Source: Prevotella sp. | Lineage (GTDB): Bacteria > Bacteroidota > Bacteroidia > Bacteroidales > Bacteroidaceae | NCBI GenBank assembly: GCA_017458125.1 | Contig: JAFTGB010000032.1 | Location: forward strand, 1 to 64,000 | Length of the DNA: 64,000 bases | Direction: 5' to 3' | Part shown: piece by piece, positions 30,657 through 40,020 of the stretch | How the letters are laid out: the number at the start of each line of letters is the position of its first letter | Position numbering within the stretch: the first letter of the stretch is position 1 | Notes under the pieces: model-generated | The model's input: the letters and a program-made list of their open reading frames with translations, nothing else | Told to the model about the DNA's origin: nothing | Database searches by the model: none | Made by a program: the position numbers and the translations under genes

Positions 30657-30792
30657 ATTCAACGATGTAGGCACATGACCCGAAACGTCGCAACCCACTC
30701 TCGTCATTTATCAATGAGCAATGCTCCTGCCAGTCATCGCTATATTCCGACAACATCTGACTCTCTGGCCAGCAGATTACTACGTAGTTCAT
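30628..30792 (-). CDS. Conserved small protein (54 aa), coupled to the methyltransferase
   Basis: ATG 30792 overlaps the TGA of the methyltransferase (ATGA). The product starts MNYVVICWPESQMLSEYSDD and continues CSLINDESGLRRFGSCAYIV. I recall short Bacteroidota proteins with the same WPESQ...LINDE.G...FGS.AY pattern, of unknown function. Translational coupling places it in the restriction-modification operon. Confidence 0.65.
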   Translation of the reverse strand: MNYVVICWPESQMLSEYSDDWQEHCSLINDESGLRRFGSCAYIVEYDWYRQFEK

Positions 30793-32003
30793 ATCTCTTC
30801 AAACAAGTCATAAGTGATGTTACACATTGCTGTTTCGCATTTCTCAAGACTGTCTGAAAAACTATTATCATCAAACAGCGGCATAGTATCACTTTTTTTC
30901 TTTTTCTTCTTCACATAATCGCCCATCGGTCTGGAACCAAAACGCAGTCGGTTGACAATCGTTGTAATAGCCTCGTCGCCAATATCCACTCCAATCCAAT
31001 TACGTCCCAGTTCTTCTGCTGCCACAAGCGTAGTTCCCGAACCCGCAAAGCAGTCGAGCACCAAGTCGCCTGGCCGTGACGACGTTTCGATGATGCGTTT
31101 AAGCATATCAATGTTCTTCTCGGTAGGATAGCCTGTAACAAGAGTATTCTGATTGTTTACATCGAGATAGTCAAGCCAGATGTCCTGCACGGGGATTCCA
31201 CTGCTCCGCTCCAGATAGACCTTCCGGCGAGGATTCCCATTTGCCGACCAATAGATTTCGCCATTCCTGTCCATCTCTTCAAGCTTGTCGGGCGTGAATT
31301 GCCAATGTTTTCCTTCTGGCGGCATCATCCCCCGCCATTCTGAACCTGTAGCACCATTACGAGTACCAGGAGCATGGACGGGAACTTTCTTATAACGCCG
31401 CCCCGTTCCCTCTTCTATATAGGGGTATTCTTTCTGTATTTTCTCGTCGCTCCATTCCTCGTAAGGACGGTTCCAAACAGGATTTTCTGTTTTTGAGTAA
31501 AACAGGATGTAGTCGGAAATGTTGCCGTATGTCTTACGGGTGAAATTTTTCGACTTGCACTTTTTTCGGGTTATCATTCCCTTGAAATTCTGCATCCCGA
31601 AAATTTCATCCATCATCACCTTTACGTGGAACACCATGTTGCTATCGAGATGCACGTAAATAGATCCCTCATCTGAAAGCAACGTGTGCATTAGTTCCAA
31701 GCGTTTACGCATGAACGAAAGATATTCCTGAATACCGAAACGGTCATCATACGCCAGTTTGAAATCACGCGTTTCAAAAGCCCCTCCTGTATTATATGGT
31801 GGATCTATATAGATGAGCGTCACCTTGCCGCATATATTCTTATCGTTCACCAAAAGGTTAAGCACATCAAGATTGTCTGCATGATACAGTCGCTTGATGC
31901 CGTCTGTCTTGCCAGATGTCGTGTGCTTGAACTTGATATTCTGCTGAGGCAACACACTCTGTTGGAATACCTGCCTATTGCCTATTGTAACTCCTACTGC
32001 CAT
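30789..32003 (-). CDS. Adenine/cytosine-N DNA methyltransferase (class beta)
   Basis: The protein (404 aa) has the catalytic motif IYIDPPYNTG (DPPY at 67-70) ahead of the SAM-binding motif CFAGSGTTLVAAEELGRNWIGVDI (FAGSGTT at 319-325), with a central target-recognition region. This order defines class beta N6-adenine or N4-cytosine methyltransferases, including type III Mod-like and many type II enzymes. It follows the putative endonuclease gene by 9 bp. A run of six Lys (about residues 365-370) lies in the C-terminal tail. AT-rich and probably acquired. The target sequence is unknown. Confidence 0.92.
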   Translation of the reverse strand: MAVGVTIGNRQVFQQSVLPQQNIKFKHTTSGKTDGIKRLYHADNLDVLNLLVNDKNICGKVTLIYIDPPYNTGGAFETRDFKLAYDDRFGIQEYLSFMRKRLELMHTLLSDEGSIYVHLDSNMVFHVKVMMDEIFGMQNFKGMITRKKCKSKNFTRKTYGNISDYILFYSKTENPVWNRPYEEWSDEKIQKEYPYIEEGTGRRYKKVPVHAPGTRNGATGSEWRGMMPPEGKHWQFTPDKLEEMDRNGEIYWSANGNPRRKVYLERSSGIPVQDIWLDYLDVNNQNTLVTGYPTEKNIDMLKRIIETSSRPGDLVLDCFAGSGTTLVAAEELGRNWIGVDIGDEAITTIVNRLRFGSRPMGDYVKKKKKKSDTMPLFDDNSFSDSLEKCETAMCNITYDLFEEI

Positions 32004-32012
32004 AATCCTTCA

Positions 32013-32897
32013 TCATTTACTGTTCAACCACTCAGAGGTCAGTCTTTCTCTGAACATTCTCAGCGTCATGACCATTATATGTTCAGAGTCTATCTTCTCC
32101 AGCTTGGAATAGTCATCCCACATGGAACCAAGTAGAAGGCCAGGGCCATCGTTGACGAAGATAACCTTAGTAGAAAGATGATGTTTCTTCGTATATCCAA
32201 GAATTTCTTTTGCACAGTTGGAATAACCGCCTGTTCGGTCATCTTCTTGTGCTCCGCCTCTATCGCCATCATAGCGAGCAAGTCCAATAGCAAGGACATC
32301 GCCTGCATTATTCTTGATTACAAAATCTACCGGACGCGTAGGGTTGGGATAATCATCGAAAACTGATTGTAATTGAACATCAGAGCCGGCACGAATAGGC
32401 CCATCTATTTTCAAATGGGGGAAAGTATTCTCGAACATAGTGAAGAAGCGTTCTGTTAAGTCATAACCTTTCTTGCCTCTGTCCTTATACTCCCACAACA
32501 GGGCGCATAGCGCCTCGTCAGGGAGAGGACGGCTCTGAAATGCTGCCTGTACCCGGTCGATAGTCCTGAAATATTTGCCATACTCCTTGCACACCATAGG
32601 AATCATCGACTTTTTCTTCAACATCTCTACGGGTGTTTGGGGATAAACATACTTGCGAAACACTCGGCACAGTTGAACACGCATCCATGCTTGTTTCAGT
32701 TCCGTAATCTGTTCCAACAGCCTTTCCGAAGACTCCGAACTCTTCAGGAACTGGCCAAACATGACAAGTACAGGCTTATAGAGTTCACAGGCATCTGGCA
32801 AAATGTCTGGATAGAAATCTCCGTTAGCCATCGTAATCCAGTTTTGCGCATCTTGCTTGTAGTCAGCAAATGATTTGTTTCGTTTTGCTTGATTCAT
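32013..32897 (-). CDS. Putative type II restriction endonuclease
   Basis: A 294-residue protein ending 9 bp before the methyltransferase start. The C-terminal half has RPVDFVIKNNAGDVLAIGLA (188-207) followed by RYDGDRGGAQEDDR (208-221). This resembles a nuclease-type core (acidic residue on a strand, then a second strand and a charged turn) that I associate with restriction enzymes. A canonical ExK is not visible, so the nuclease class is uncertain. Position and coupling make it the likely cognate endonuclease. Confidence 0.65.
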   Translation of the reverse strand: MNQAKRNKSFADYKQDAQNWITMANGDFYPDILPDACELYKPVLVMFGQFLKSSESSERLLEQITELKQAWMRVQLCRVFRKYVYPQTPVEMLKKKSMIPMVCKEYGKYFRTIDRVQAAFQSRPLPDEALCALLWEYKDRGKKGYDLTERFFTMFENTFPHLKIDGPIRAGSDVQLQSVFDDYPNPTRPVDFVIKNNAGDVLAIGLARYDGDRGGAQEDDRTGGYSNCAKEILGYTKKHHLSTKVIFVNDGPGLLLGSMWDDYSKLEKIDSEHIMVMTLRMFRERLTSEWLNSK

Positions 32898-32906
32898 ATC
32901 TTACAG

Positions 32907-33245
32907 TTATATCTTATTAAACACATGCCGAAGCTCTCCAAGAAGGAAATCATCAGTATTCAACTCATACACATCACGAGTTTCCGGGTCTTCACAACTA
33001 AAGACTAAATCGTCCCTGAATCGTATCTCCTTGACATCCAATTCCTGGACTTGAGTAAAACAGCATGAAACCAAACGGGGACAATCTTCTGGAAATTGAA
33101 TATTGCCACCAGCCTTTTCAAGGGCGGTCTTGAGTTTTTCTACAAGGAGTTCGTTGACAAATACGAGCACATCTTCTATAGTAAGAGTATCATAAGATAC
33201 CCCTCTACGAATTGTGTCCTTTATTATGTCCTTTGTCATAAGCAT
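32907..33245 (-). CDS. Unrecognised 112-aa protein heading the restriction-modification operon
   Basis: I do not recognise it. It starts MLMTKDIIKDTIRRG (ATG 33239 is an alternative start). It is acidic and mostly helical at the N-terminus, with ELDVKEIRFRDDLVFSCEDPE in the middle. It is separated from the endonuclease gene by 9 bp and has the operon's promoter directly upstream. It could be a controller or an accessory subunit; no helix-turn-helix is obvious. Confidence 0.6.
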   Translation of the reverse strand: MLMTKDIIKDTIRRGVSYDTLTIEDVLVFVNELLVEKLKTALEKAGGNIQFPEDCPRLVSCCFTQVQELDVKEIRFRDDLVFSCEDPETRDVYELNTDDFLLGELRHVFNKI

Positions 33246-33438: not shown

Positions 33439-35559
33439 ATGAATCAATTGGTATTTAACAGCCTCGCTATCGAAAGGCGTAATCCCGTTAAAGTAATTGA
33501 CCTCTTCGCAGGATGTGGAGGTCTGAATAAGGCATTGGAGAGCACATGGAAGCATGCTACTATCCGTGTCACGAAAGACTCATGCGAAAGCCTATGGGAA
33601 GACAATACTTGTTTAAGTCAGCTGTCAGAGGTTTTCTTTGCTTACTGGGAAGAGGAGCTTCACGATATTCCACGAGGTGAGCATTATTCAGTCAAGGCAG
33701 ACATGAACTTATTGTATCGTCTCGGAAGATTCGAGATGACGCAGAAAATTGTGCGTTACTTCAGAGGTTTGGGTTTTCCTGTGTGTCGGGATTTTATTGG
33801 GCGAATAGAGGTTTGGATTCCTAAGGATGAAGGTAATTCCATTCTTTATAACAGATACACACTAAGACCATACTATCAAGACATAACTGATGGTTGGCAA
33901 ATTGATGTCAGCCATAGCGGTGAGAGCCGATGTTCCAAGAAGACTTTATACGATGTTGACCTTGATGACCAAGGCTTCGATGTTGTTGCCGGAACAGAAG
34001 TGCTTCGCAGGACTCAAGTCAAGCAACATCACTTCCAGAGGTTTGGCGGCGGTTGTCCTATCGTAAACAGATATACGAAGAAGGTACTAAACTTGTCGGA
34101 GCCCCGCTCTCATGACAGGAACAAATATGCTACCAAGATGAAGAAGATAAAAGACTTCATCCATATATACCTTTTGACTCAGCAGTTTCAGGACGCTCTT
34201 GACATCAACATATTGAATAACGGTGAGTTGATACAGGTGAAACCTGACGACATACTCATAGTCAACGAGCAGGCAAGAAACCTTAAATACGGTGACGGTT
34301 TTGTTGGCGCCCTGCCTCGCAACGATTTCTCACAACACGGACCATATATACAACCACAGCCATTCAGATATTTTTTTGTCAGCCTAAATTCGCCAACGAG
34401 TAATGCTGCGAGAGCACGTCTTTACAACATTTTTCAGAATGGCCGAGACTCTTCTGTGCTACGGCAAGGCGATAAGGAGTACGGTTCCAACAAACAATTC
34501 AAACGATTAGGTGAATACCTTAATCAATCTTTGTTGTGGGTATCAAATCTCAGCCTTTCATACTCGTCGTACGATACTGCGCTTGAAGAGTTGAGAAAAC
34601 ATTTGATGGATGACAGCAGATTTATCCCCGGCTACAACTATATCGCCATTATCATCAGCGAGATACACAAGGACGCCCCCGAGCCACGTCTGCATGAATT
34701 GTATTACAGAATGAAGGAACTGTTGATGAAATCGAAAATTACATCACAGGTGATTTATGCCCCTAACATTAACAACTCTCATTTTGACTGGTTCCTCCCA
34801 AACATTGCTGCTGCCATCACGGGCAAACAAAACGGAATGGCTTGGGGACTGGAAAGCCTATCACAACGCAACGACATGATTGTCGGTATTGGAGCATCAA
34901 AGCAACATGGCCGTAAGCCCTATCTCGGAACTGCTTTCTGTTTCGACAAGGAAGGCCAGTTCCGTGAGTTTGATTGCTGTCAGGCTGAAGATACTGAGGC
35001 TTTGGGTACAAGTCTGAAGAAAGCATTGTGGCAATTCTGTAAGCAATATGGTAAGCCCGACAGACTTATCATCCACTACTACAAGAAACTGAGACGGGAA
35101 GAAGGCGAGCAGATAGAAATGATGCTCAAACAAAACGGAATTCAATGTCCTGTATTTGTGGTCAACATGGTTACGGCTGTAAATGACGATCTGATAGCCT
35201 TTGATACCACGAAGAATGACTTTATGCCTTTGAGTGGAACCTATGTCCATCTTAGGGACACCCAGTTTTTGCTCTACAACAACGAGAGATATACTGAGTT
35301 TGGAAAAGGCGATGTGCTGTTTCCCATCAAGATGACTATCACGAGTGCCAATACTAATACAGGCGGCATTTTGACAAAAGAAGACACCATCGACATCATT
35401 ACACAGGTGTATCAGTTCTGTCGTCTCTATTGGAAGTCGGTCAAGATGCAGAACGTACCTATAACTATTGCCTATCCAGAGTTGGTTGCTAAGTACGTTC
35501 CACACTTCAACGATGAAGATTTGCCTGAGTTCGGAAAACATAATCTGTGGATGCTCTAA
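33439..35559 (+). CDS. Long prokaryotic Argonaute, catalytically degenerate, with a methyltransferase-like N-terminus
   Basis: The 706-residue protein matches long pAgo layout. L1-like segment: FRGLGFPVCRDFIGRIEVWIP...DGWQIDVSHSGESRC. MID-PIWI transition: HFDWFLPNIAAAITGKQNG. PIWI strands: DMIVGIGASKQHG (479-491) and RLIIHYYKKLRREEGE. The C-terminus is hydrophobic (NLWML). Catalytic Asp are replaced: Gly485 where GIDVS has Asp, and Tyr548 in IHYYK where active forms have IHRD. It should therefore bind a guide and target without cutting. Residues 19-35 (VIDLFAGCGGL...ALES) match motif I of C5-cytosine methyltransferases, which is unexpected for an Argonaute. An in-frame stop at 33409 excludes a longer start. 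AT-rich; the partner gene follows after 12 bp. Confidence 0.85.
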   Translation: MNQLVFNSLAIERRNPVKVIDLFAGCGGLNKALESTWKHATIRVTKDSCESLWEDNTCLSQLSEVFFAYWEEELHDIPRGEHYSVKADMNLLYRLGRFEMTQKIVRYFRGLGFPVCRDFIGRIEVWIPKDEGNSILYNRYTLRPYYQDITDGWQIDVSHSGESRCSKKTLYDVDLDDQGFDVVAGTEVLRRTQVKQHHFQRFGGGCPIVNRYTKKVLNLSEPRSHDRNKYATKMKKIKDFIHIYLLTQQFQDALDINILNNGELIQVKPDDILIVNEQARNLKYGDGFVGALPRNDFSQHGPYIQPQPFRYFFVSLNSPTSNAARARLYNIFQNGRDSSVLRQGDKEYGSNKQFKRLGEYLNQSLLWVSNLSLSYSSYDTALEELRKHLMDDSRFIPGYNYIAIIISEIHKDAPEPRLHELYYRMKELLMKSKITSQVIYAPNINNSHFDWFLPNIAAAITGKQNGMAWGLESLSQRNDMIVGIGASKQHGRKPYLGTAFCFDKEGQFREFDCCQAEDTEALGTSLKKALWQFCKQYGKPDRLIIHYYKKLRREEGEQIEMMLKQNGIQCPVFVVNMVTAVNDDLIAFDTTKNDFMPLSGTYVHLRDTQFLLYNNERYTEFGKGDVLFPIKMTITSANTNTGGILTKEDTIDIITQVYQFCRLYWKSVKMQNVPITIAYPELVAKYVPHFNDEDLPEFGKHNLWML

Positions 35560-35571
35560 ATAGTTGCTGCG

Positions 35572-36747
35572 ATGGCATTACCTATTATTGACAGTATGCT
35601 GAGAGGTGATTTGCGTAGACAAATACTCTCAACGTTGAAAACAGAGAAAGAAATCTCTCTACTATGGCGTGACCTGATGAAAGCAACACAGGGCAAACAA
35701 AGTCTGATGGCAATTGAAAAGGCTCTTGTTGCGGCAGTCGAGACAAGTGGGTTAGTGCAGGTATCTGCAGACTATGGAAATGATAGAGAAGTACGACAAG
35801 GTGCAGAGGAAGCACGAAAGCAAGGTATAAGTAGTGGAGAATACAATTACACCAGAATCGATGAGGAGTTAAGCTTGGATGGAATTTTTAATTTTACTAC
35901 TGAAACTACGCCGACCGACAAGTTTCTGCATTTGTTGGTTAAGGTGGAATGCCGACGTACCATAGAATCCCTTCTGATGCTTGTCAAGTCAGTTCATGAC
36001 GATGCTGTGGTTCGTACTTATGTTCGCAAATTATTCTCCCGTATATCATCGTTCTGTAAGGACACTAACGACCTCTATATAAGAGAATCGCTCACGCAAC
36101 TCTATTTTGAGGTGTACCATACTTTCAAAAATGTTTTAGAAAAAGGTGACTTGCAATCGTATGAGACCGATTTTGAGAATTTCATCTTTGACTGGAAAGG
36201 GGAGTTCCCTGATGAAGGTGTTGTGGCAAAATACAGCGAAAAAGCACAAGCATTTAGTCCAAGAGTAAAGATTGACCATGGCTCAGATACCTTAAGTTCT
36301 CCACCTGCTGAGCAACCACACCAACTTGCTGCTAAGCCTAAAGACAAGTTCGATATTTTCTTGGAAGCGGCAAATGTATTCACCTTCTCTGAATTGCCAA
36401 AAATCAAGGAACTTGGCACTTCCCAGAAAATTCGTCAGTTTGTAGAATGTTTACTGCAAGAAAAAGAAACTGTTGCCGATACGTTTGGACATACAGCAGC
36501 GATGCTTGAGTTCTTAGGTTTTTTCACATGGATAGCAGACAACCATGTAAGCGGATACAGACTGAACCAATATGACACCTGGTGTTCCAAGAACATCATG
36601 GGGAAATCAAGCGGTACAGCTTTTAAGCATTACAGATTGTCCGTTGCCGTTTCTCCTACTGATACAAAAAATGAGTCATATAAGTATCTCGGGTGGAAAT
36701 ACAAAGAATCCGTAATAGAAGAATACCAAAGAATACTAAAAGGATAG
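35572..36747 (+). CDS. Unrecognised Argonaute-associated protein, 391 aa
   Basis: I do not recognise the family. No signal peptide or membrane helix is visible and no nuclease, TIR, Sir2 or ATPase motif stands out. The first 230 residues look helical (MALPIIDSMLRGDLRRQIL...). A polar linker (SSPPAEQPHQLAAKPKDK, about 243-260) separates a C-terminal domain (about 260-391) with AAMLEFLGFFTWIADNH and YKYLGWKYKESVIEEY. It starts 12 bp after the Argonaute stop and is followed by a terminator, so the two form a closed operon. It is a candidate effector or loading partner. Confidence 0.75.
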   Translation: MALPIIDSMLRGDLRRQILSTLKTEKEISLLWRDLMKATQGKQSLMAIEKALVAAVETSGLVQVSADYGNDREVRQGAEEARKQGISSGEYNYTRIDEELSLDGIFNFTTETTPTDKFLHLLVKVECRRTIESLLMLVKSVHDDAVVRTYVRKLFSRISSFCKDTNDLYIRESLTQLYFEVYHTFKNVLEKGDLQSYETDFENFIFDWKGEFPDEGVVAKYSEKAQAFSPRVKIDHGSDTLSSPPAEQPHQLAAKPKDKFDIFLEAANVFTFSELPKIKELGTSQKIRQFVECLLQEKETVADTFGHTAAMLEFLGFFTWIADNHVSGYRLNQYDTWCSKNIMGKSSGTAFKHYRLSVAVSPTDTKNESYKYLGWKYKESVIEEYQRILKG

Positions 36748-36999: not shown

Positions 37000-37494
37000 A
37001 TGAAAAAGGATTTAAATTCAAAGAGAAGACCATCAGGTTCTACGAAGAAGAATGAGCCTAAGGTCATTGGCGAGGTGCTTAACGAGTACTTCGCAAGTAA
37101 CGAACCCCTTGCAGTTGCCTACCGCAACCGCCTCTTCAAGGACATACACCCACACACGGAGTTGGGTGTTGACTTGAAGTTGTTGAGACGTGAACCTGGG
37201 CGCATGCCTGTGGGGACAATGATTGACGGAGCTATCGTTCATGATGACGAGGTTCACTTCACCTTCATTCAGAATGACCCAAAAAAGAAGGTGGCGGCAA
37301 TGCAGCGTAATCCGCATGTTTACATGGGTAAGTGCATCAACGTGAACCGCAAGGATGACGGGACTCTTTATCCCACCTTCAACCGTCCTCAGTTCACGGA
37401 GGATTTCACCTTTCAAGACTTCTGCCGTGAGGCTGCCGAAGAACTGATTGTCGTGGCTGGCCTTGTAGAGAAGAAGCGGATTGTTGGGAAGTAA
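37000..37494 (+). CDS. Unrecognised basic 164-aa protein
   Basis: I do not recognise the family. From ATG 37000 the product begins MKKDLNSKRRPSGSTKKNEP, a basic tail. It continues with IGEVLNEYFASNEPLAVAYR, LFKDIHPHTELGVDLKLLRR and VHFTFIQNDPKKK. An in-frame ATG at 36913 exists but would read through the leader hairpin. The gene lies between the Argonaute operon and the DUF3987 gene. GC is intermediate, and it may belong to the element to its right. Confidence 0.55.
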   Translation: MKKDLNSKRRPSGSTKKNEPKVIGEVLNEYFASNEPLAVAYRNRLFKDIHPHTELGVDLKLLRREPGRMPVGTMIDGAIVHDDEVHFTFIQNDPKKKVAAMQRNPHVYMGKCINVNRKDDGTLYPTFNRPQFTEDFTFQDFCREAAEELIVVAGLVEKKRIVGK

Positions 37495-37506
37495 TTAACC
37501 AGATGT

Positions 37507-37659
37507 AGCGTTCCAGTTCCAGTTGTTCCAGTTTCTAAAAAAGGGACAATACATCCTTCTAAAGACTTCATAACTGATTGATATATAGTTAGTTATATAA
37601 CAAAAGAAGGGTAATGGAACCCTCGGAAAAGTAATTGGAACAATTGGAACTGTCACGCT
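37507..37659. repeat. 24-bp inverted repeat pair around about 105 bp
   Basis: 37507-37530 and 37636-37659 are reverse complements with three mismatches; the core CAGTTCCAGTTGTTCCA pairs with TGGAACAATTGGAACTG. The pair lies in the gap before the DUF3987 gene, with AT-rich sequence between the arms. It could be an operator pair, a replication or processing site, or the end of a small element. Confidence 0.6.
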
Positions 37660-37696
37660 CAGGTCATTAATGTTTCATCTAAAAAGCAGAAAATCA

Positions 37697-38998
37697 ATGA
37701 GATACGACATTTCAAAATCTACGGCCCCTAAGATGCCTAACCTCGGCAGGGGCACAGAATGTATCAAAATCCTGCTCTCGCAGGTATCTCGCGACATGCA
37801 CGAACCGCTGGTTCCGATGCTCTTCCCCATACTGGGCGCACACGTCAGCGGCGCGGAATTTCAATATCCCGACCTCTCGTGGAAGGAAACGTGCGGCATG
37901 ATGGCCAATCTCGTGGCCGATTCGGGCTGCAACAAGGGGCAACTGTCCAATCTTGTGGAGGCTATTTGCCGCGATTTCCGCCAGCACGACGAGGCTGAAC
38001 TGAAGAAGCTCGTGGAGTGGCAAAGGCAGTATAAGAGCAAGGCCAGTACCAAGGAGAAGCCTATGCGCCCCGAGGTGGCTTTCTGGTTTCCACCCTCGGA
38101 CGTGACGAATGCGGCCTTCATCCAGAACGCCATGGCACTCGAAGCTCTTGGCGGACGCACGCAATACCTGAACATGCCGGAGGTGGAGATGGCCGACAAG
38201 ATGTGCGGCGGCCACCGGCAGGTGACGCAGATGCTGCGCAACATCTACGACCGCCAGCGCGCCGGAGCCTTGCGTGCCACGGCCGACGGCATCACGGGCA
38301 ACCCTCTGCTGCGAACCAATCTGACGATTTCCAGCACACCCTTTGCCACGCGCAAGTTCTACAAGAACGACCTGTTCAACGGAACGTTCGGGCGCATGGT
38401 TTTCAGCTACAAGGCGCGCACCAGTCGCGACGGACGCATACCCCGACAGGGCAAGTATTCGGAAGAGTTCTACCAGCGGCTGGATGAATACCTGGTGCGC
38501 CTCGACATCTGCAAAGGCCGCTACATCATCCGTCCGCTCAACAAGCTCACGGACCGTCTGGCCGCAGATATGGCTTCGCTGGCCGACCTGGCCGACGACA
38601 ATGTGCTGTGGGATGTGTCGAAGCGTGCCTTGGTGTCGGCATGGAAAGCAGGCTGCGTGATGTGGGTGCTCAACAATCAGACGTGGACGCGCCCGATGGG
38701 CGACCTCGTGGAGTGGCTCGTTTATCATGACATCTGGAGCAAGATGCAAATCTTTGCCGACATGCTCAATATTGATGCCGACCAGACGAGCGAGGCTCAG
38801 CGCCGCGGCCCGAAGAACATGCTCGACTCATTGCCCAACACCTTCAGCAAGGCTCAGCTGGAAGCCCTGCGCACCACGCTCGGCAAGAGTCAAGAGGGAA
38901 CAGATGCCCAGCTGCGCAAATGGGTGTTCCGCAAGTTCATCAGCTACTCAGCCGAGACAGGACTCTACTGCAAGACCGAAGAGTATTTGAAACTTTAG
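37697..38998 (+). CDS. DUF3987-like protein of mobile-element replication modules
   Basis: The 433-residue protein resembles the DUF3987 (VirE-linked) proteins found beside CHC2 primases in Bacteroidota elements: FQYPDLSWKETCGMMANLVADSGCNKG, MRPEVAFWFPPSDVTNAAFIQNAMALE and MPEVEMADKMCGGHRQV. A classic Walker A is not visible. I use ATG 37697 (MRYDISKS); ATG 37670 would add nine residues. The primase follows after 56 bp. The assignment rests on general pattern and neighbourhood. Confidence 0.65.
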   Translation: MRYDISKSTAPKMPNLGRGTECIKILLSQVSRDMHEPLVPMLFPILGAHVSGAEFQYPDLSWKETCGMMANLVADSGCNKGQLSNLVEAICRDFRQHDEAELKKLVEWQRQYKSKASTKEKPMRPEVAFWFPPSDVTNAAFIQNAMALEALGGRTQYLNMPEVEMADKMCGGHRQVTQMLRNIYDRQRAGALRATADGITGNPLLRTNLTISSTPFATRKFYKNDLFNGTFGRMVFSYKARTSRDGRIPRQGKYSEEFYQRLDEYLVRLDICKGRYIIRPLNKLTDRLAADMASLADLADDNVLWDVSKRALVSAWKAGCVMWVLNNQTWTRPMGDLVEWLVYHDIWSKMQIFADMLNIDADQTSEAQRRGPKNMLDSLPNTFSKAQLEALRTTLGKSQEGTDAQLRKWVFRKFISYSAETGLYCKTEEYLKL

Positions 38999-39054
38999 GA
39001 CATCGAACATTGAAGATTGAACCATTGAACGTTGAACTTTGAAAATTGAACGTT

Positions 39055-40020
39055 ATGGACAAGCAAGAACTCGAAAAGCTCCGCGACCTGCCTATTGAGG
39101 GGGTCGCAGAGCGACTTGGACTCCAAGTACGCATGCACAAGGCACTATGCCCGTTTCACGACGACCACCACGCAAGCCTGTCGTTCTCGGTACGCAGGAA
39201 CACGTTCCGATGCTTCGTCTGCGGGGCCTCGGGCGGCACCATCGACCTCACCATGCGCTGCCTCGGCAAACCCTTCCGCGAATCCTGCCAATGGCTGGCC
39301 GACGAGCACAGCGTCATCATGACCGAGGCCGCTTCACGGGCATTGTCAGCCCCCTCGGCACCCGGCACTCGCCCCGCCTTCGACGCCTCGCGCTATGAGC
39401 GGTTCTTCGAGCACCCGTGGCTCTCCGACGAGGCACGGCGCTTCCTCTACGGCGAGCGCAGGCTGGACGAGCGCGTGGTGCGCTGGTGCCGACTGACATC
39501 GTGGCAGGACCGCCAGGGCGTCAGCTGGCTGCAGACACCCTACTACGACGTTGACGGACGGCTCGTCGGCATACAGAACCGCAACCTCGTGCGGGGAGCC
39601 CTACCCCGGTTCCGATTCCCCGCCGGGTCGGCGTGCAGCATCTACAACCTGCCCGTCATCAAGCTGCTGCAACCGGGCGAGCCGCTATGGATTACCGAGG
39701 GCTGCTCCGACTGCTGGGCCATGCTCTCGGCGGGCCACAAGGCGGTGGCCATCCCCTCGGCCACGCTGCTGAGGCAGAGGGACGCAGAGCTGCTCGCCGC
39801 ACTCAGCACCCGCCTCTCCACCGAGTTCCACATGTACCCCGACAGCGACGTCCCCGGCGAGCGACTCTTCATGCAGCTGCGCCAGCGGCTGCCCTCGCTG
39901 CACCACCACCAGCTGCCGCCCGGCTGCAAGGACTTCAGCGACTACTACCTGTCAGCGACAAGGCAGCCCGCCCACCAGAGCATCCACCGGCTGACGGACG
40001 AAGCGTCACGCCCGCCCTGA
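39055..40020 (+). CDS. CHC2 zinc-finger / Toprim DNA primase-like protein
   Basis: The protein (321 aa) has an N-terminal CHC2 finger (CPFHDDHHASLSFSV...FRCFVCGASGG, about 30-65) and a Toprim domain with the catalytic Glu in LWITEGCSDCWAM and the DxD-type acidic pair in MYPDSDVPGERL. It lacks the helicase-binding domain of DnaG, so it is of the short element-encoded type. The 50 bp before ATG 39055 consist of degenerate TTGAAC/TTGAAG words. Probably primes replication of an element together with the DUF3987 gene. Confidence 0.85.
   Translation: MDKQELEKLRDLPIEGVAERLGLQVRMHKALCPFHDDHHASLSFSVRRNTFRCFVCGASGGTIDLTMRCLGKPFRESCQWLADEHSVIMTEAASRALSAPSAPGTRPAFDASRYERFFEHPWLSDEARRFLYGERRLDERVVRWCRLTSWQDRQGVSWLQTPYYDVDGRLVGIQNRNLVRGALPRFRFPAGSACSIYNLPVIKLLQPGEPLWITEGCSDCWAMLSAGHKAVAIPSATLLRQRDAELLAALSTRLSTEFHMYPDSDVPGERLFMQLRQRLPSLHHHQLPPGCKDFSDYYLSATRQPAHQSIHRLTDEASRPP

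Follow-up and report, generated by a model that had tools for sequence, protein, structure and literature searches.

The gene at positions 33439..35559 of the stretch of Prevotella DNA analysed here (64,000 nucleotides, below referred to as the window) raises the question of how an Argonaute (pAgo) came to carry, near its N-terminus, a segment that reads as motif I of a C5-cytosine DNA methyltransferase, and whether the segment works as one. The original prediction offered two alternatives: an adjacent dcm-type gene could have recombined into the 5' end of the Argonaute gene, or this branch of pAgos could have a SAM-loop-like N-terminus of its own.

The segment in the window pAgo and its relatives

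The open reading frame on the forward strand (33439..35559; the translation begins MNQLVFNSLAIERRNPVKVIDLFAGCGGLNKALESTWK) encodes a protein of 706 amino acids, which is a pAgo and not a methyltransferase. Outside the segment it has the predicted long-pAgo layout, with a PIWI domain (Pfam Piwi, E=9.8e-13) and a PADLOC pAgo match over residues 45-706 (E=2.6e-155). Inspection by eye finds IVGIGAS where active pAgos carry Asp, and the HYYKK stretch is also devoid of Asp; judging by these residues, the protein has probably lost the DEDX tetrad and would be catalytically inactive. The first strand of the N domain, LVFNSLAIERR (33448..33480), is common to other pAgos in MAFFT alignments and corresponds to a strand at residues 4-13 in a low-confidence model. 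The motif-like segment VIDLFAGCGGL follows at residues 19-29 (33493..33525) and ALES at residues 32-35 (33532-33543), both exactly as originally described; the C5-like similarity continues over NKALEST (33526..33546), the counterpart of the helix after motif I, modelled with low confidence as a helix at residues 31-37.

A scan of genome contigs yielded seven relatives, four of them 78-84% identical to the window protein (L012, L013, L014, L018), two 48-49% identical (L016, L017), and L015, whose contig starts inside the gene and which was therefore excluded from the N-terminus count. The segment is found at the same place in all six relatives with a full N-terminus (48-84% identical, from separate metagenome assemblies), although partly degenerate: L012, KVIDLFAGCGSL; L013, KVIDLFAGCGGL; L014, KAFELFAGCDSL; L018, KVIDLFSGCREL; L016, RVIDIFAGIGGL; L017, KVIDLFAGIGGF. 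These assemblies come from horse faeces, goat abomasum and RUG isolates, the latter presumably from the rumen. Across the lineage, F23 and G25 are the only motif residues that never vary; in three of the six relatives, L012, L014 and L018, GS, DS or RE stands in place of Gly-Gly.

The segment is hence an inherited part of the N domain in this lineage. A chimeric assembly is excluded for practical purposes, as six relatives from separate assemblies, two of them at only 48-49% identity, have the segment in common. Recent fusion with an adjacent dcm gene was rejected, since the segment is conserved in the relatives and no C5 gene was found in the examined flanks of any of them; the proposed recombination thus finds no support as a recent event. 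Nor was the native 5' end replaced, as the first strand ahead of the motif aligns with other pAgos (the N-S/T-L/I pattern). We found nothing in favour of a chimera or a recent fusion, and consider both as having next to no probability.

Likeness to C5 methyltransferases and place in the N domain

The Pfam model of C5 methyltransferases (DNA_methylase, PF00145) matches only residues 18-37 of the window pAgo, that is, 20 of its 324 positions, with 14.9 bits (E=0.018), below the cut-off of 22 bits. The same model yields E=0.0044 in L017 and E=0.11 in L013, and no match at E<=1 in the other four of the six relatives. PADLOC models of type II methyltransferases match some 20-30 residues of the window pAgo (best E=0.0011). 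In a comparison of profiles, the N domains of seven window-lineage sequences aligned by hhalign with a home-made C5 profile (14 sequences from related genomes) score 63.4 (P 5e-9) over 23 columns, residues 14-36. In 150 column shuffles of this comparison the mean score was 14.1 and the maximum 24.2, none being near the observed value; other stretches of the pAgo score at most 16.2, and 13 other pAgos, represented by their N domains, score 11.4. The likeness to motif I thus exceeds chance, in agreement with the earlier judgement that a chance match is very unlikely, in a test that was selected after the motif had already been noticed.

The 23-column similarity extends beyond the loop into the helix and is strongest in L017 (KVIDLFAGIGGFNVGLQRA; 26.4 bits against the C5 profile for the whole protein, 24.8 bits for the motif stretch). 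The motif-I sequence of M.HhaI served for comparison, and a C5 methyltransferase from our set, L082, reads FIDLFAGLGGFHIALES, with the same spacing. The likeness ends there. Compared with the C5 methyltransferases (PF00145, M.HhaI type), the window pAgo has motif I and the start of the next helix, 20-23 residues in total, whereas every other motif and the remainder of the domain are absent: the rest of the protein scores no higher than 16.2, and further pieces of the profile score below zero bits. A search of all six-frame stretches of at least 30 amino acids from the window and 16 other loci with the C5 profile (E<=0.01) retrieved only seven pAgo motif stretches and one ORF in L100, all additional pieces in these proteins being below zero bits. 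No C5 gene was found by this search in the 17 loci, and in the window it matched the motif stretch alone, which confirms that the window contains no complete C5 methyltransferase; the same genome encodes four such enzymes, all on other contigs.

The place of the segment in the N domain was assessed by alignment with further pAgos, retrieved from genomes of near relatives (7 of 199), the genus (9 of 398), the family (7 of 399) and the order (28 of 393), repeats and fragments included. Of five MAFFT runs, one comprised 35 rows; each of the remaining four comprised 29, of which 19 were inspected. All five pair LVFNSLAIER with the first strand of the other pAgos and KVIDLFAG with the second; a six-column gap directly follows KVIDLFAG in four runs, and in the fifth, with a higher gap penalty, it is placed a few columns later. 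At the motif position L027, the nearest outgroup in the tree, reads SLVMELDLCVEKSDE / SLVMELDLCVEKSDEYRQ. The N-terminal 129 residues align with the profile of 13 other pAgos over 113 columns (hhalign, P 5e-9), the match being driven mainly by their second half. As far as the sequences allow to judge, the segment would be the second strand and the following loop of an ordinary N domain, lengthened by about six residues, with the first 60 residues aligning weakly. The AlphaFold2 model (seven sequences) has a mean pLDDT of 49.5, and about 30 at residues 21-40; in this low-confidence model the motif is mostly coil, followed by a helix at residues 31-37 and a strand at 41-45.

In the window lineage the motif is under no special selection: for five genes, pN/pS is 0.31 at residues 18-29, compared with 0.30 at residues 2-17, 0.41 at 30-40 and 0.23 at 41-125. 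With Gly-Gly gone from three of the six relatives and no unusual selection on the motif, SAM binding in this lineage is unlikely. Of the predicted SAM-loop-like N-terminus the sequence-level part stands, the segment being inherited and its profile score being 63.4. A working SAM loop or a Rossmann half is not supported, given the loss of Gly-Gly, the lack of special conservation of the motif and a model too uncertain at this place (pLDDT about 30).

A second pAgo lineage and the island type

How specific the motif is was estimated by scanning genomes for the coding pattern and classifying the hits with a home-made C5 profile. Nine genomes selected because they encode pAgos gave 11 places: five C5 methyltransferases, five pAgos and one with an internal stop codon. 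In sixty genomes of the genus the pattern DLFAGxGG occurred at 34 places, 30 of which were classified, using a profile built from four frames, three of them C5 and the fourth (L004) not. Among these 30 were 27 C5 enzymes or fragments (including L086 and L096, both short, at 18-19 bits), the window pAgo, L084 (DFFAG, without C5 features) and L093. In 399 genomes of the family, classified with the C5 profile of 14 sequences without the L004 frame, all 55 places with [DN]LFAGCGG were assigned: 50 to C5 enzymes (at least 130 bits) and five to pAgos (at most 24 bits), with no place outside these two families. The profile was built from similar genomes, which eases the recognition of C5 enzymes and leaves the pAgo count unaffected. 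The genomes of these five pAgos are five of the seven in the 399-genome set that match the window-lineage pAgo profile. Searches among phages, plasmids and IMG/VR yielded nothing or only distant plasmid pAgos (four records for the window protein, eight for L028), and in the text collection searched no paper joined Argonaute with IDLFAG. Outside the C5 enzymes the motif stretch occurs almost only in pAgos, in two lineages.

L093 (genome G015) is an ORF of 475 amino acids at 5319-6746 of L100 (reverse strand), starting with MEGITKNVERVMKVMDLFAGCGGLNINALSS and matching no family above the cut-off. It adjoins apparent type I restriction-modification genes with homologues in L018 and lies near a CHC2 primase-like gene (about 40% to that in L018); searches of 118 other genomes and of IMG/VR yielded no relative. 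This ORF may be what is left of a C5 gene, joined to a different frame, or it may be a third protein carrying the motif.

The presence of the same stretch in a second, distant pAgo lineage was unexpected, and it was not visible to the original prediction. This lineage (L025, L028-L031), from genomes of the genus or family to which the window genome belongs, is about 30% identical to the window protein. Its N domain contains exact or near YIDLFAGCGGL, apparently at another position: YIDLFAGCGGL in L025 and L028, YIDLFAGCGGV in L029, YSNLFAGCGGM in L030 and YTDLFAGCGGI in L031. Here the motif comes after PKEV[KR]Q[TA]QK, where other pAgos have P.EI..LFPGI..NG..IYTTF or similar; in L028 it occupies residues 53-63, by alignment between the first helix and the third strand. 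The codons of the motif differ between the two lineages when the DNA is compared by eye.

Among the kin of the second lineage, motif-like variants are seen at the same spot in L008 (L106, 7914-10220), which has VIDIFGQQGGF (VIDIFGQQGGFNLG), and in L022 (L107, 7723-9987), which has SLFVGIGGEL; L009 reads ADLCTNSGDF, and L026 has no motif. The variants in L008 and L022 suggest that in this lineage the motif predates the exact DLFAGCGG form. Against the C5 profile, the carriers L025, L028, L030 and L031 score 55.7, eight sequences including kin 50.0, and the kin L008, L022 and L026 alone 33.6 (P 2.5e-4); the Pfam C5 model was not found in any of the eight pAgos of the second lineage and kin tested. 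Among four second-lineage genes, LFAGCGG has no amino-acid change at a pS of 0.50, the pN/pS of the whole motif being 0.18 versus 0.15 and 0.17 in the flanks. This invariance suggests a constraint on the exact letters; when L009 is added, pN/pS becomes 0.25 and the special conservation disappears.

A tree of 34 pAgos, built on their last 340 residues (the PIWI part) and weak at some of its deeper forks, groups the window lineage (100/100) with L027 (96/92) and the second lineage, kin included, with L048 (97/99). Thus L027 and L048, both without the motif, separate the two lineages. When the N domains of the lineages are aligned by hhalign, the two motifs fall opposite each other both locally, over 14 columns (P 5.5e-6), and globally, though weakly (probability 6%); the whole-protein alignment covers residues 188-706 only. 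It is possible that both motifs are one rearranged common element, although pAgos without the motif lie between them in the PIWI tree.

Where the loci allow comparison, the two lineages also share an island type. In the window, the pAgo gene is directly followed by a partner gene of 391 amino acids (35572..36747, forward strand), present in eight loci (the window and L012-L018) with a size of about 385-398 amino acids and 34-70% identity. The 391-residue protein has no Pfam domain above the cut-off and no NCBIfam or PADLOC match at E<=0.1; it is a probable effector. Behind the pair, on the same strand, are a gene of about 164 amino acids, conserved there by locus comparison (37000..37494), a gene of 442 amino acids (37670..38998), whose homologue in L101 weakly matches DUF3987 (E=0.014, below the cut-off), and a CHC2 zinc-finger primase-like gene of 321 amino acids (39055..40020; Pfam Zn_ribbon_DnaG, E=1.8e-13). 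Upstream, on the reverse strand, Pfam, PADLOC and NCBIfam searches identified a divergent N6/N4 DNA methyltransferase, not of the C5 type (30789..32003), accompanied by two genes of no known family, 294 (32013-32897) and 112 amino acids (32907-33245) long; the region 30789-33245 is possibly a separate restriction-modification-like cargo, an uncharacterised restriction system.

The order of genes in the window lineage is pAgo, partner, a gene of 120-200 amino acids, a gene of about 440 amino acids and the CHC2 primase-like gene. The module (37000-40020 in the window) was also found in L012, L013, L014, L016 and L018, with the 440-residue gene split into two ORFs in L013 and the small gene missed by the ORF filter in L018; L017 was followed to the contig end. 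Behind the second-lineage pAgos of L101, L102 and L104 stands the same module; these three are the motif carriers suitable for this comparison, since the L103 contig stops short of the region and the L029 locus was left out. In L105, where the motif is degenerate, the module is inverted on the other side, and at L106-L109, pAgos without the exact motif, it was not found within the 15-17 kb examined. Two neighbouring upstream genes are 93-94% identical between L016 (7875-9992) and L101 (3196-5322), yet the pAgos of these loci belong to different lineages, which indicates exchange of pAgo cargo within one island type. The defence island itself is likely integrated and mobile.

A shared partner as the cause of the motif was considered and set aside, as any relationship between the partners of one lineage and those of the other is distant at best, and L106, L107 and L109, without the exact motif, have the partner family of the second lineage. 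The hhalign probability for the two partner families is 9%; the L105 partner resembles that of L018 (blastp, 31%, E=3e-10) and gives E=0.14 with the window partner, and the window-lineage partner is related to a 507-residue ORF in L108 (hhalign probability 90%).

Possible explanations and known systems

In our opinion, the segment is probably native to the N domain, transmitted vertically within one Bacteroidales pAgo lineage that resides in integrated defence islands, and has a structural strand-loop-helix role, taking no part in SAM binding or DNA methylation. It would occupy the second strand and the following loop; by analogy with long-B pAgo systems, the apparently inactive pAgo would recognise invader nucleic acid by a guide and signal to the 391-residue partner, and the likeness to motif I could be either convergent or the trace of some 20 codons acquired long ago. 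This structural reading is consistent with the common place of the segment in all six full-length relatives, three of which have altered Gly-Gly, with the pairing of KVIDLFAG in all MAFFT runs and the 113-column N-domain match, with the restriction of C5 similarity to motif I and no C5 gene being found in the 17 loci, and with a pN/pS on the motif close to that of residues 2-17 (0.31 vs 0.30; 0.23 at 41-125). On the other hand, the first 60 residues align weakly, and the second strand is a result of alignment, modelled with a pLDDT of about 30. A structural role also leaves unexplained both the second lineage and the restriction of [DN]LFAGCGG to C5 methyltransferases and pAgos in 399 genomes, and the unchanged LFAGCGG in four second-lineage sequences fits it poorly until L009 is added.

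The origin of the segment is a separate matter, and here a small old acquisition, compatible with a structural role at present, is a possibility that we hold only tentatively: about 20 codons of a C5 gene (the strand, the SAM loop and the start of helix A) would have been inserted into pAgo genes at least twice and then kept, in defence islands carrying restriction-modification genes. The extension of the similarity through the loop into the helix, best in L017, the separation of the two lineages by pAgos without the motif, the absence of [DN]LFAGCGG from other proteins of the 399 genomes and the visible exchange of cargo between L016 and L101 all point this way, but no donor gene or identity at the DNA level has emerged, codons differ between the lineages by eye, the net insertion is only about six residues, and at the second-lineage site P.EI..LFPGI..NG could reach DLFAGCGG in a few steps. 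That ready precursor also suits coincidence or loose structural convergence, in which a strand-turn-helix with small residues came to resemble motif I twice. With genomes scanned on such a scale, isolated Pfam look-alikes with an E-value of 0.018 are to be expected, the Pfam C5 model fails in four of the six window relatives and in all eight pAgos of the second lineage and kin, and both lineages contain members that depart from the motif (L014, L018; L009, L026). Coincidence is nonetheless rather unlikely, with none of 150 shuffles near the observed score and none of 55 places outside the two families. If, finally, the segment were a functional SAM- or nucleotide-binding loop, or a C5 mimic allowing the pAgo to sense or resist something aimed at methyltransferases, its recurrence in two lineages sharing the island type, where testable, and the constancy of LFAGCGG in four second-lineage members would be accounted for; the loss of Gly-Gly in half of the window relatives, the lack of any other element of a SAM pocket, the ordinary selection in the window lineage and the loss of the motif in L009 make this improbable. 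Also improbable is that two unrelated pAgo lineages in the same island slot independently acquired, or were selected for, a C5 SAM-loop segment at two N-domain places because it is functional, be it in binding a SAM or nucleotide signal or in posing as a methyltransferase to a shared regulator or some factor of a phage.

If functional, the motif would link Argonaute defence and DNA methylation through a shared protein segment; otherwise the case is still unusual, a highly specific family signature being found outside its own family, in two lineages of one other family. The case warns against methyltransferase calls resting on motif I alone, and the reuse of the same eight-letter stretch within one family makes the question of the pAgo N domain testable by mutation.

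The proposed defence role follows published accounts of long-B pAgo systems (PMC10620215, PMC6299218). The part of PMC10620215 on which we rely does not mention a motif-I-like segment in the N domain. There, one long-B subclade is associated with VirE-N-domain proteins; compared with the systems described in that part (BPAN, BPAS, BPAM), the 391-residue partner in the window differs, having no recognised nuclease, Sir2 or other domain above the cut-off. Otherwise, as in these long-B systems, the window pAgo is full-length, appears from its sequence to lack the catalytic Asp, and is encoded directly upstream of its partner gene.
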